Below are positions 39,652-57,263 of a DNA stretch of 64,000 nucleotides, piece by piece. Each line of letters starts with the position of its first letter. The stretch's first letter is position 1. The notes under the pieces are model-generated. The model was not told the origin of the DNA. It saw nothing but the letters and a program-made list of their open reading frames with translations, and ran no database searches. Source of the stretch: an uncultured Alphaproteobacteria bacterium (GTDB taxonomy: Bacteria > Pseudomonadota > Alphaproteobacteria > SP197); contig CALSLK010000008.1 of the NCBI GenBank assembly GCA_943787175.1, positions 62,001-126,000 on the forward strand, read 5' to 3'. Both the position numbers and the translations under genes were made by a program.

Positions 39652-39950
39652 TTAGCCCATTGCAATATCTTCGTAGAGGTCTCTCCAGGTTGGATTGAAG
39701 TTGGATATGAGATCGTCTTTTCAGTCGCGGCGCCAGCGTTTCAGACGTTTCTCGCGAGTGATGGCTTCGTGCACGTCTTCGAACGGTTCGTAGTAGACGA
39801 GCTTCTTGAGTGCATAGCGTTTGTGTAGCCTTGGATGGTTCCTTCGCGATGTTCCCAGGTGCGTTTGCCCAGATTGCTGGTGACACCAATGTAGATCGGA
39901 CCGTTCTCCCGCGACGTCATGATGTAGACGAAGTAGGATTTGGTGAGCAT
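39652..39950 (-). pseudogene. GIY-YIG nuclease (YhbQ-like), frameshifted and with an internal stop
   Basis: Would encode ~100 residues: N-terminal SYFVYIMTSRENGPIYIGVT (GIY-YIG-type YIM..YIG), EHREG, then after a 1-nt shift in an A-run near 39820, KRYALKKLVYYEPFEDVHEA and REKRLKRW. An in-frame TGA at 39721-39723 stands where the intact paralogue at 55205 has Trp; a further conserved NPTWRDLYEDI segment follows to TAA at 39652. Bracketed by GTCATCC palindromes on both sides. Confidence 0.88.
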
Positions 39951-54079: not shown

Positions 54080-54208
54080 GGTGGTCTCCGATCCGGTTTG
54101 GTTGATCCTGCCCTAATTCGTGGAGCTGCGCAGCCTTTGGGGTAGTTCGGCTGGCGACTCTGCCCGATGCCGTGCGAAGCTGACGCTGCGATCATCAACA
54201 AGGTATTC

Positions 54209-54958
54209 ATGGCTCCCTGGACCAACGAAACGCTGCTGCTGATTGCTTGTGCCTTTCTGCTCGCGGGGTTCGTGAAGGGCGTCGTGGGATTCGGACTGCC
54301 GACGGTTGGTCTGGTGGTGCTGGCGTTGTTCACGGGCGTGGTCGATGCCATGGCGCTGATTCTGGTGCCTGCTGCCGTGACCAATCTGTGGCAGGCCATG
54401 GTGGGGGGGCATCTTCTGGTGACTCTGCGACGGTTCTGGCCGTTGTTGCTGACGCTGTGCCTGGGAACGTGGATTTCAGCGGGATGGCTGGTCGGCGCGA
54501 ATGCGCTGGTGCTTTCAGCCGCGTTGGGGCTTCTGCTGGTGGTCTACGCCGGGATCAGTCTGGCCGGCTTGCAGATGCCTTCGCCGGGGAAACAAGAACG
54601 CTGGTGGACGCCTTTGGTGGGACTGGTAAATGGCCTGATTACAGGTCTGACCGGGACATTCGTTTTGCCCAGTGTGCTTTATCTCCAGGCGCTGGGGCTG
54701 CCTGCGGGCCAACTGATCCAGACCATGGGCGTGTTCTTCCTGACCGCAAGTCTGGCGCTCTCCTTTGCACTGGCCGACCACGGGCTGATTGCTGGCGGTG
54801 TGCCCATATTGTCCGCCGTTGGTGTGGTGCCGGCTTTGCTTGGGATGTTGCTGGGCGCACTGCTGCGACGCTGGATGAGTGCGGCAATTTTCCGCCGTGT
54901 GTTCTTTGTCGCGCTGCTTCTACTGGGCGCTTATCTGGCGGTGCGCGGTTTCGTTTGA
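54209..54958 (+). CDS. TauE/SafE family sulfite exporter-like permease
   Basis: 249 residues, about eight hydrophobic helices, with the family halves LLAGFVKGVVGFGLPTVGL and GLVNGLITGLTGTFVLPSVL. Exports sulfite, sulfoacetate or other small anions. AAGGTATTC precedes the ATG; an upstream ATG 42 nt earlier is less likely. Confidence 0.9.
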   Translation: MAPWTNETLLLIACAFLLAGFVKGVVGFGLPTVGLVVLALFTGVVDAMALILVPAAVTNLWQAMVGGHLLVTLRRFWPLLLTLCLGTWISAGWLVGANALVLSAALGLLLVVYAGISLAGLQMPSPGKQERWWTPLVGLVNGLITGLTGTFVLPSVLYLQALGLPAGQLIQTMGVFFLTASLALSFALADHGLIAGGVPILSAVGVVPALLGMLLGALLRRWMSAAIFRRVFFVALLLLGAYLAVRGFV

Positions 54959-55011
54959 TGCTGATTGGGTGTTGTGCCGGGATGTGGGGGCTGTGCTGGT
55001 TTATTCCGCCC

Positions 55012-55047
55012 GTGCATGGATCGTCGAATCAAGTTCGACGATGACTC
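55012..55047 (+). repeat. 36-nt palindromic repeat, copy 1
   Basis: GTGCATGGATCGTCGAATC... through ATGACTC; core arms TCGTCGAA / TTCGACGA around TCAAG. Identical over 36 nt to 55538-55573 and to the reverse complement of 55125-55160. Confidence 0.95.
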
Positions 55048-55124
55048 CAAAAGGGGGAATTGGCAGGATTGCATCTGACTAAGGCGTATCGTGAGTAGAT
55101 CGAAGCCCATCACCAAACCAAAGT

Positions 55125-55160
55125 GAGTCATCGTCGAACTTGATTCGACGATCCATGCAC
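55125..55160 (-). repeat. 36-nt palindromic repeat, copy 2 (inverted)
   Basis: Exact reverse complement of the copies at 55012 and 55538. Ends 44 nt before the GIY-YIG start codon. Confidence 0.95.
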
Positions 55161-55204
55161 GGACCGCGGAGCAAGTGCGAAACCTGATCGAGGTGTGGTT
55201 ATCG

Positions 55205-55492
55205 ATGTCGTACTACGTCTACATGCTGGCCAGTCAGACGCGCGGGACGCTCTACATCGGCGTGACGAACGATGTTGCGCGGCGGTCATGGGAGCATCGT
55301 GAGAGTGACCAGCCCGGATTTGCCAAGCGGTATGGCGTGAAGCGTGTGGTGATGGTCGAGGCCTATGAGGATGTGCGTGATGCCATCCGTCGGGAGAAAC
55401 AGCTTAAGGGCTGGAAGCGGGTCTGGAAGATTGCTCTGGTCGAGGAGAACAACCCGACCTGGTCGGATTTATACGATCATCTGCATTTCTGA
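55205..55492 (+). CDS. GIY-YIG nuclease domain protein (YhbQ-like), intact
   Basis: 95 residues, a single GIY-YIG domain: YYVYMLASQTRGTLYIGVT (GIY-YIG equivalents YVY and YIG), RRSWEHRES with the catalytic Arg/His region, EAYEDVRDAIRREKQLKGWKR with the metal-binding Glu, and NPTWSDLYDHL. No other domain. Start at 55205 (GAGGTG upstream). Intact paralogue of the broken gene at 39652-39950; both are bracketed by GTCATC palindromes. Confidence 0.9.
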   Translation: MSYYVYMLASQTRGTLYIGVTNDVARRSWEHRESDQPGFAKRYGVKRVVMVEAYEDVRDAIRREKQLKGWKRVWKIALVEENNPTWSDLYDHLHF

Positions 55493-55537
55493 GGTTAGGT
55501 GCTTCTGATGAGTAAAGTGTTTCTGAGGTTGAACTCC

Positions 55538-55573
55538 GTGCATGGATCGTCGAATCAAGTTCGACGATGACTC
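55538..55573 (+). repeat. 36-nt palindromic repeat, copy 3
   Basis: Identical to copy 1; begins 45 nt after the GIY-YIG stop. Confidence 0.95.
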
Positions 55574-55619: not shown

Positions 55620-57263
55620 TTACGCGGCGGGCAGAGAGACGTCGGCTTTGGGGAGAGGAGGTTTGCCGAGGATCATGTCGGCGGCTTTTTCGCCGATCAT
55701 GATCGTGGTGGCGTTGGTGTTGGCGCTGACGATGCTGGGCATGACAGAGGCATCGACCACGCGCAGGCCTTCGATGCCGTGGAGGCGCAGCTGAGGGTCG
55801 ACGACGGCCATGCTGTCGTTACCCATCTTGCAGGTGCCGCAGAGGTGAAAATCGCCGTCGGTGTTGTTGCGTAGATACTCGTCGATTTCGGCTGGAGAGT
55901 TCACATCCTTGCCCGGGGCGGCCTCCTTCACCCCCAGGTAATCATGGGCCTTCTGCGAGGCGAGTTCGCGGCCAATGCGCAGGGCGTGACGCATCTGGTT
56001 GAGGTCATAATCGGTGGTGAGGAAGTTTGACCTGATGCGCGGTTCCCCGGCGGGGTTGTCGGCGTTGAGCTTGACCCAGCCGGTTGCTTCGACCCGGACA
56101 GGGCCGATGGCATAGGAGAAGCCGTGGAGGTCGTGACTGAGGCCATCGTCGTGATCCATCACGGCGGCAAGGAACTGAACCAGGATATCGGGGTGGGGCA
56201 CGCCGGGCTCTGTGCGCAACAGGGCGCAGGTCTCGACGTTGTTGGTGCTCCCGGGACCGGTATGGGTGGTGAGCCACTGTGCGCCGACCATCAGTTTGCG
56301 ATCCGTGCGCAGGTACTTGCTGACAGAAACCGGCTTGTCGATCTCGAACTTCATGTAGATCAACGGATGATCATGGAGGTTCTGACCAACGCCGGGCAGG
56401 TCGACCTTGCAGTCGATGCCGACTTCCTTGAGGTGGTCGGCCGGACCGATGCCTGAGAGCATGAGAAGCTGGGGCGAGTTGATAGCACCGCTGGAAAGAA
56501 TGACCTCACGCCGGGCTCTGGCCTGCTGTTCCACGCCGCCACGGGTGAACGAGAGGCCGGAGACGCGGTTGCCTTCGATGGTGAGGTTGTCGGCGTGGCA
56601 ACGGTCCATGACGGTGAGGTTTTCGCGGCCCTGGTTGGGACGGATATAGGCCTGTGCGGTAGAGGCACGCACGCCATTGTCGACATTCATCTGGAAAGCG
56701 CCGAAGCCTTCCTGATGTTCGCCGTTGATGTCGTCACTGGCCGGTGCGCCCATTTGTTCGCCGGCGCGCAGGAAGACGTCATAGAGTTCACAATCGTGAT
56801 CGCCCTTGCGGACATGCACCGGACCACTTCCGCCACGCCATTTGTTTTCGCCGCCCTGCCAGGTTTCCAGGCGTTTGAAATAGGGCAGAACTTCCTGCCA
56901 GGACCAGCCGTCTGCGCCTTCGGAGACCCAACGTTCGAAATCGAGTGCATGGCCGCGGATGAAACACATGCCGTTGATGGCTGATGAGCCACCCAGAACC
57001 TTGCCGCGCGGCTGGAAGACCCGTCGGTTGTTGAGAGCCGCTTCTTCTTCGCCGTGGTACATCCAATTGTACTTGGGATCGACCCAGGCCTTGTCGAAGG
57101 CCGCAGGCATGTCGATCTTCCAGAAGTCGAGGATGCCACCCTTGCTGGCGCCGGCCTCGATCAGAAGCACCGAGATGGAAGGATCTTCGGTGAGACGTGC
57201 GGCTACGGTACAGCCTGCCGAACCACCGCCGATGATGATGTAATCGTATTCGGTTGTGGCCAT
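55620..57263 (-). CDS. GMC family FAD oxidoreductase (choline dehydrogenase-like)
   Basis: 547 residues. FAD-binding YDYIIIGGGSAGCTVAARL at the N-terminus, GMC signatures RGKVLGGSSAINGM and GAINSPQLLMLSGIGP, C-terminal DFHLCGTCKMG and VVDASVMPSIVSANTNATT with the active-site His/Asn region. Oxidises an alcohol to an aldehyde. No betaine aldehyde dehydrogenase or BetI nearby, so choline is not proven. Confidence 0.92.
   Translation of the reverse strand: MATTEYDYIIIGGGSAGCTVAARLTEDPSISVLLIEAGASKGGILDFWKIDMPAAFDKAWVDPKYNWMYHGEEEAALNNRRVFQPRGKVLGGSSAINGMCFIRGHALDFERWVSEGADGWSWQEVLPYFKRLETWQGGENKWRGGSGPVHVRKGDHDCELYDVFLRAGEQMGAPASDDINGEHQEGFGAFQMNVDNGVRASTAQAYIRPNQGRENLTVMDRCHADNLTIEGNRVSGLSFTRGGVEQQARARREVILSSGAINSPQLLMLSGIGPADHLKEVGIDCKVDLPGVGQNLHDHPLIYMKFEIDKPVSVSKYLRTDRKLMVGAQWLTTHTGPGSTNNVETCALLRTEPGVPHPDILVQFLAAVMDHDDGLSHDLHGFSYAIGPVRVEATGWVKLNADNPAGEPRIRSNFLTTDYDLNQMRHALRIGRELASQKAHDYLGVKEAAPGKDVNSPAEIDEYLRNNTDGDFHLCGTCKMGNDSMAVVDPQLRLHGIEGLRVVDASVMPSIVSANTNATTIMIGEKAADMILGKPPLPKADVSLPAA

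Follow-up and report, generated by a model that had tools for sequence, protein, structure and literature searches.

CGTC REPs occur across five phyla (Di Nocera et al. 2013, PMC3733652). According to that paper, they are dispersed in the genome, predominantly as head-to-head dimers, and consist of a head (CGTC, in many cases TGTC or CCTC), a stem of 8–9 bp starting from AT, a loop of 4–5 nt and a CCA tail. No dedicated transposase is assigned to them there, and a search for transposases beside them yielded just a few fortuitous associations. The repeats described here flank a small gene within the window, i.e. the whole 64,000-nt stretch of alphaproteobacterial DNA that was analysed. They share with CGTC REPs the GTC head, the AT-starting 9-bp stem, the 5-nt loop, the CCA tail and the arrangement in head-to-head dimers; they differ in that PMC3733652 reports no transposase gene accompanying the repeats, whereas a GIY-YIG gene and an AGTC head are found in the window. 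In the RAYT/REPtron systems, too, an enzyme gene is flanked by a REP variety dispersed in the genome, with dimers as the likely non-autonomous units. In contrast to RAYTs, the window protein has another fold and chemistry and shows no Y1 HUH domain in Pfam, and the tags are of CGTC type instead of the GTAG of RAYT systems.

GIY-YIG homing endonucleases (I-TevI group; Dunin-Horkawicz 2006, PMC1564403) resemble the window protein in their catalytic domain and in selfish spread, whereas the window gene bears its presumed target on both sides and does not interrupt it. The UPF0213 protein BH0048 (1zg2) matches the window protein in sequence and fold. A frame of Neisseria gonorrhoeae, whose 2.17-Mb record is classed as a plasmid, shares 52 % identity with the window protein over 90 aa; both contain PF01541, and the neisserial frame lies among dRS3-type REPs, of which the nearest are 108 nt (upstream) and 83 nt (downstream) away. 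The window gene is best read as a member of a GIY-YIG group that also has a relative in Neisseria. We take this neisserial frame and its group to be Ssn, a GIY-YIG nuclease of Neisseria that is reportedly single-strand specific, acts site-specifically on neisserial repeats and affects transformation. Ssn and the window gene have in common a small stand-alone GIY-YIG protein with repeats around its gene (window and N. gonorrhoeae); the bracketing cassette, its variation from site to site and a second family of repeats are results of the present analysis, whereas cleavage is a feature reported for Ssn. Since a GIY-YIG family tied to neisserial repeats has reportedly been described, the initial annotation, which had considered the unit not covered by known classes, was too strong on this point. 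A link between GIY-YIG nucleases and REPs is not described in the literature found, subscription journals being mostly outside the search, and the words CGTC, REP, transposase and GIY-YIG nowhere occur together in the mostly non-subscription literature searched; passages of PMC1564403 and PMC12306157 do not mention such a link either.

The repeat-bracketed gene and its genomic setting

The locus comprises the following features:

54167–54958, plus strand: TauE/SafE permease gene, left neighbour; host gene outside the unit
55010–55163, no strand: head-to-head REP dimer formed by copies 1 and 2, with 81 nt between the cores
55010–55047, plus strand: REP copy 1; hairpin core 55017–55045, tail TGG on the left, head GAC on the right
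55125–55163, minus strand: REP copy 2 (38-mer 55125–55162); core 55127–55155, inverted, CCA tail towards the gene
55205–55492, plus strand: stand-alone GIY-YIG nuclease gene; 95 aa, ATG at 55205, TGA at 55490–55492
55535–55573, plus strand: REP copy 3 (38-mer 55536–55573); core 55543–55571, TGG tail towards the gene
55620–57263, minus strand: GMC oxidoreductase gene, convergent right neighbour; host gene outside the unit

The three repeats around the gene are 100 % identical over 38 nt, slightly extending the three identical 36-nt copies originally claimed, and copies 2 and 3 agree across 39 nt. The gaps to the gene amount to 42 and 43 nt from the 38-mers; the 44 and 45 nt given by the initial annotation match a measurement from the 36-mers. 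Its 449-nt unit (55125–55573, from REP to REP) with an open 95-residue GIY-YIG gene was confirmed as well, and so was the hairpin nature of each copy: the 29-nt core forms a hairpin of its own with a 9-bp stem and a 5-nt loop (−9.0 kcal/mol as DNA; equalled by 0 of 200 shuffles), and the 39-nt copy 2 folds with −8.9 kcal/mol (equalled by 2 of 200 shuffles). The bracketing by inverted copies holds true, but the layout required correction, since the first two copies constitute a head-to-head dimer and the third stands alone; the order is REP dimer, gene, single REP. Over 141 nt, this dimer can fold into one extended hairpin (−40.9 kcal/mol, z −8.7). Its cores are 81 nt apart, as compared to 39–43 nt in the seven other head-to-head pairs of the genome.

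The repeats fit the CGTC REP grammar in their GTC, stem, loop and tail, the base preceding GTC being A in the window, whereas a number of other copies have C or T there; judged by these sequence features, they are CGTC-type REPs. A genome-wide search, as proposed initially, detected 12 sites with no more than 3 mismatches in the host genome of 3.9 Mb and, with a looser REP pattern (≤1 mismatch), 41 sites belonging to several varieties; the respective control patterns had no match. Copies without a gene also exist, frequently in pairs, and REPs are more numerous than GIY-YIG genes in this genome. The window variety forms 8 head-to-head pairs, while the 8 tail-to-tail pairs (spacing 50–54 or 93–104 nt) nearly all belong to other varieties. 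A second stand-alone GIY-YIG gene of the same genome (C18), the C-terminal third of which is shifted into a different frame, likewise has perfect REPs on its two flanks, with their tails inward, of a variety unlike that of the window. Four more exact copies of the C18 variety are present, and both varieties are also found elsewhere in the host genome.

Pfam assigned only the GIY-YIG domain to the window protein (PF01541, E 3e-14 with the 105-aa form that results from an alternative GTG start at 55175) and detected neither a Y1 HUH domain nor extra domains. An alignment of 22 sequences (the window protein and 21 picked from 79 relatives) contains 15 invariant columns, including Tyr6, Tyr17, Gly19, Arg27, His31, Glu64 and Asn83, and the window protein possesses the invariant residues. 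Its predicted fold is confident (pLDDT 90.6); the sole solved structure matched by fold at E ≤ 0.001 is 1zg2 (UPF0213), followed by 1ywl and Slx1 entries. At E ≤ 0.1, a sequence search among solved structures likewise retrieved only this entry, UPF0213 protein BH0048, titled hypothetical protein. A search of NCBIfam with the window protein yielded no family, one of PHROGs only weak matches to homing endonucleases, and a search for phage relatives a single record with 35 % identity. According to Pfam and the open reading frames, no intron or intein was seen at the gene, which is intergenic between the open TauE and GMC genes.

A third GIY-YIG relative is located at 39670–39948 (minus strand) of the window. 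Its frame is broken, and no CGTC REP occurs within the 3.1 kb read around it; an open-frame relative of this copy is present in genome G004 (C225).

Association of nuclease genes with REPs

Relatives of the GIY-YIG protein were found in 85 of 289 genomes of the class. The class survey read 110 loci, counting that of the window, which represent the best of 148 listed matches. A CGTC REP lies no more than 400 nt from the gene in 66 of them (on both sides in 43, only upstream in 9 and only downstream in 14), and 44 have none nearby. REP density near the genes is 1.89 per kb (166 REPs) versus 0.11 per kb at distances above 600 nt (29 in 262 kb), a 17-fold local excess that is somewhat inflated by the mostly coding background windows; scrambled-tag controls gave 0, 0 and 1 hits. 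The nearest REP is oriented with its tail towards the gene in 37 of the 52 upstream cases and in 39 of the 57 downstream ones. Moreover, inverted flank matches of at least 14 nt were detected at 101 of 206 loci (two of 208 being left out for short flanks) and in none of 176 control windows. At 38 of 65 loci, the upstream and the downstream REP are alike in the 9 letters directly behind the head; shuffles gave 2.3 such loci on average and 8 at most.

CGTC REPs are also present beside 19 of 79 loci in a cross-phylum sample (drawn from 126 relatives, with 46 left out and one of 80 merged) and in 10 of the 15 records read from a plasmid collection with 33 matching records. At the level of whole genomes, at least 5 REPs occur in 42 of 85 gene-bearing genomes versus 18 of 204 without protein hit; with one genome per family, the proportions are 23 of 41 and 8 of 96 (p 5e-9). 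The link between nuclease and repeat is firm, specific and widespread. Repeats occurring in quantity without relation to GIY-YIG genes, which the initial annotation had regarded as speaking against its proposal, were not the general picture. The link is nevertheless not without exceptions, namely the 44 loci lacking a CGTC REP and the 18 genomes that harbour at least 5 REPs although no protein hit was obtained at the cut-off used.

Two nuclease clades and two repeat families

A second nuclease clade (44 loci) is accompanied by GTCATCCTGAGCG repeats instead of CGTC REPs. Many of the 79 cross-phylum loci devoid of CGTC REPs have the likewise GTC-headed motif GTC[AG]T[CT]CTGAGCG, of which 102 sites were counted within 430 nt of the 208 genes versus 12 in 949 kb elsewhere. 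If a third, rarer repeat type is added, 66 of the 79 cross-phylum loci have a repeat of some type, as compared to just 68 of 110 in the class survey.

Mapped on a FastTree phylogeny of 208 proteins, the topology of which was used irrespective of branch supports, the repeat type changes only once among 143 labelled nucleases (99 CGTC and 44 GTCATCCTGAGCG; the 65 proteins without either label were omitted), whereas shuffled labels required 37.8 changes on average and at least 31. Since both types are present in Alphaproteobacteria, Bacteroidia and Dehalococcoidia, this match between repeat type and clade does not simply follow taxonomy. The presence of CGTC REPs is likewise clustered on the tree (31 changes versus a null mean of 69). 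For 84 of the 99 CGTC loci (15 of rarer stem/loop classes being omitted), the stem/loop class changes 9 times (null mean 28, minimum 20), while the stem letters show no correlation with the distance between the proteins (Mantel r 0.085; the null reached 0.163).

Repeats starting with GTCATCCTGAGCG adjoin GIY-YIG genes of Clostridia, Fibrobacter, Acidobacteria, Bacteroidia and Reyranella (L048, L060, L087, L030 and 40 further loci). Their translation, SEAKNL, presumably occurs in many annotated proteins; this string was not found in the literature searched, with subscription journals mostly outside.

Sites with and without the unit and possible routes of movement

Several sites differ between relatives by the presence of a unit. 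In genome G004, one site (C72) spans 904 bp, in which a unit and a gene-deleted REP pair are found, versus 4 bp in the genome of the window, and another (C201) carries a unit inside 649 bp versus 43 bp; the upstream REP of the latter is of the window variety (97 %) and the encoded protein is 76 % identical. Conversely, the C18 unit of the window's genome, with a REP-to-REP length of 435 nt, belongs to a stretch, otherwise consisting of other DNA, that measures 1009 bp in the comparison with G014 (40 bp there) and 1022 bp in the comparison with G005 (103 bp there). The lack of site variation between close relatives that the initial annotation had named as contrary evidence is thus not what was found.

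In Azospirillum lipoferum 4B, a dimer-gene-dimer unit of 617 nt is located between sufB and sufC, its REP heads pointing towards the gene, unlike in the window. The sufB–sufC gap contains no REP in A. ramasamyi (91 nt), strain B510 (129 nt), A. oryzae (87 nt) and A. thermophilum (55 nt), and REPs are also absent from the unannotated sufB–sufC stretches of A. argentinense and TSH58. At a site of Sinorhizobium meliloti Ak57, 775 nt separate the flanks versus 80 nt in Sinorhizobium K101. The latter lacks the gene and contains a hairpin in which the outer half of one REP of the remnant pair is joined to that of the other, in addition to another degenerate REP recognized by eye; its condition looks like a loss through deletion and not like a virgin site. 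Because K101 retains such REP-derived scars at a gene-less site, some of the absences are losses. Two REP pairs (L134, L288) enclose no more than a C-terminal remnant of the gene, as deletion derivatives should.

Gain or loss of whole units between relatives is well supported by these sequence comparisons. Of the precise empty sites suggested initially, sites with and without the unit were indeed recovered, but clean edges were not: the edges at the compared sites are blurred, without target-site duplication or sharp insertion edge, and one gene-less site is scarred. With respect to insertion-sequence features, inverted repeats are thus present and a clear target duplication is not evident at the compared sites. 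Two gene-less dimer sites of the window's genome, compared by length alone at 70–80 % identity, are not counted among the empty-site evidence: L142, where G014 has 99 bp for 321 bp and G005 a similar length (235 for 257 bp), and L144, where G005 has 23 bp for 515 bp. At the site of the window itself, REP copy 1 is cut after the loop by an IS-like end in G004 (C233; L132, 1–213), followed by the contig end; since G004 contigs end at this site, they have no bearing on the presence of the gene there.

The joint gain and loss suggest that gene and repeats travel together. On the whole, the unit is probably a small selfish cassette, i.e. a GIY-YIG gene bounded by its own target, the GTC-headed REP hairpin. 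In the window and in most REP-bearing loci read, the CCA tails of the nearest REPs are directed towards the gene and the GTC heads outward. The blurred edges without target duplication, the share of class-survey loci without CGTC REP, the non-uniform orientation, the missing correlation of stem letters, the 18 genomes rich in REPs but devoid of a protein hit, the K101 scars and the chemistry of GIY-YIG enzymes (see below) argue against a cassette.

It is rather unlikely that the nuclease instead serves its host by cutting single-stranded DNA at REPs and thereby tuning the uptake or recombination of incoming DNA, in which case the REPs beside the gene would be targets or regulators and the cassette would move passively by REP–REP recombination. 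The role reported for neisserial Ssn, the dRS3-type REPs near the homologous neisserial protein and the K101 hairpin, as the product of a REP–REP deletion, would agree with such a function; yet the bracketing of the gene by locus-specific matching repeats, the broken copies and the deletion derivatives have a selfish look, just 85 genomes of the class have a match, and the unit of A. lipoferum is absent from all six Azospirillum relatives read.

Composite hitch-hiking, i.e. movement of REPs by a Y1/RAYT or IS transposase with capture of a GIY-YIG gene between two of them, appears improbable. The surplus of REPs over GIY-YIG genes would be in line with it, as would the IS-like end that, in our reading of the sequence, interrupts a REP in G004, and an IS4-family transposase gene adjoining the Rhizobium unit. 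Capture is not expected, however, to yield one single switch of repeat family over all labelled nucleases, and the fortuitous transposase associations of CGTC REPs noted in PMC3733652 are few. That intergenic REPs are simply common and the gene merely lies among them is hardly credible: REPs and gene are both intergenic and the coding background inflates the contrast somewhat, but there are just 41 loose REPs in 3.9 Mb, and the local excess, the orientation bias, the matched REP pairs and the inverted flank matches all contradict it. Chance placement was rejected on the grounds of the class-survey excess, the flank matches and the single repeat-type change on the tree.

For the selfish cassette, we infer that the nuclease itself drives movement, which is the best explanation the sequences offer. 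It may recognise the REP hairpin while single-stranded or extruded (during replication or transformation) and then cut at or next to it, and host repair or template switching could copy the REP-bounded DNA to new intergenic sites. The non-autonomous offspring would be solo REPs, dimers and REP pairs that have lost the gene, in analogy to the REPs of RAYT genes, and hydrolytic nicking would take the place of Y1 strand transfer. GIY-YIG enzymes hydrolyse DNA without keeping a covalent link to it, and to our knowledge no strand-transfer step is part of their chemistry; the nuclease is therefore no step-for-step stand-in for a Y1 transposase. The initial annotation was right in linking gene and palindromes, and the transposase role that it gave to the nuclease is a putative one.

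One may tentatively speculate, with somewhat more doubt than conviction, that GTC-headed REPs and GIY-YIG nucleases constitute an extensive class of minimal mobile elements that spans several phyla, forms a counterpart to RAYT/REP and comprises at least two nuclease clades with one repeat family each. If so, CGTC REPs, among them dRS3, and a second widespread bacterial repeat would gain the enzyme they have been missing, and a hydrolytic nuclease route to REP mobility would be added alongside the Y1 route. The cassette may explain the spread of a common class of bacterial repeats, and the spread of CGTC REPs becomes testable with oligonucleotides and the purified 95-aa protein.

Further arrangements were observed at individual loci. 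At L134 (2148–3051), a gene-deleted REP pair stands in tandem with a full unit, and the spacer is a diverged copy (77 %) of the sequence following the insertion. In a Planktothrix plasmid (L300), a GIY-YIG relative without CGTC REPs has an MmeI-type restriction gene on one side and drmA, a DISARM gene, on the other. In Photobacterium (L299, 3450–5786), 15 dRS3-like REPs form a row 3′ of the GIY-YIG gene, mostly as tail-to-tail pairs with starts 148 nt apart.
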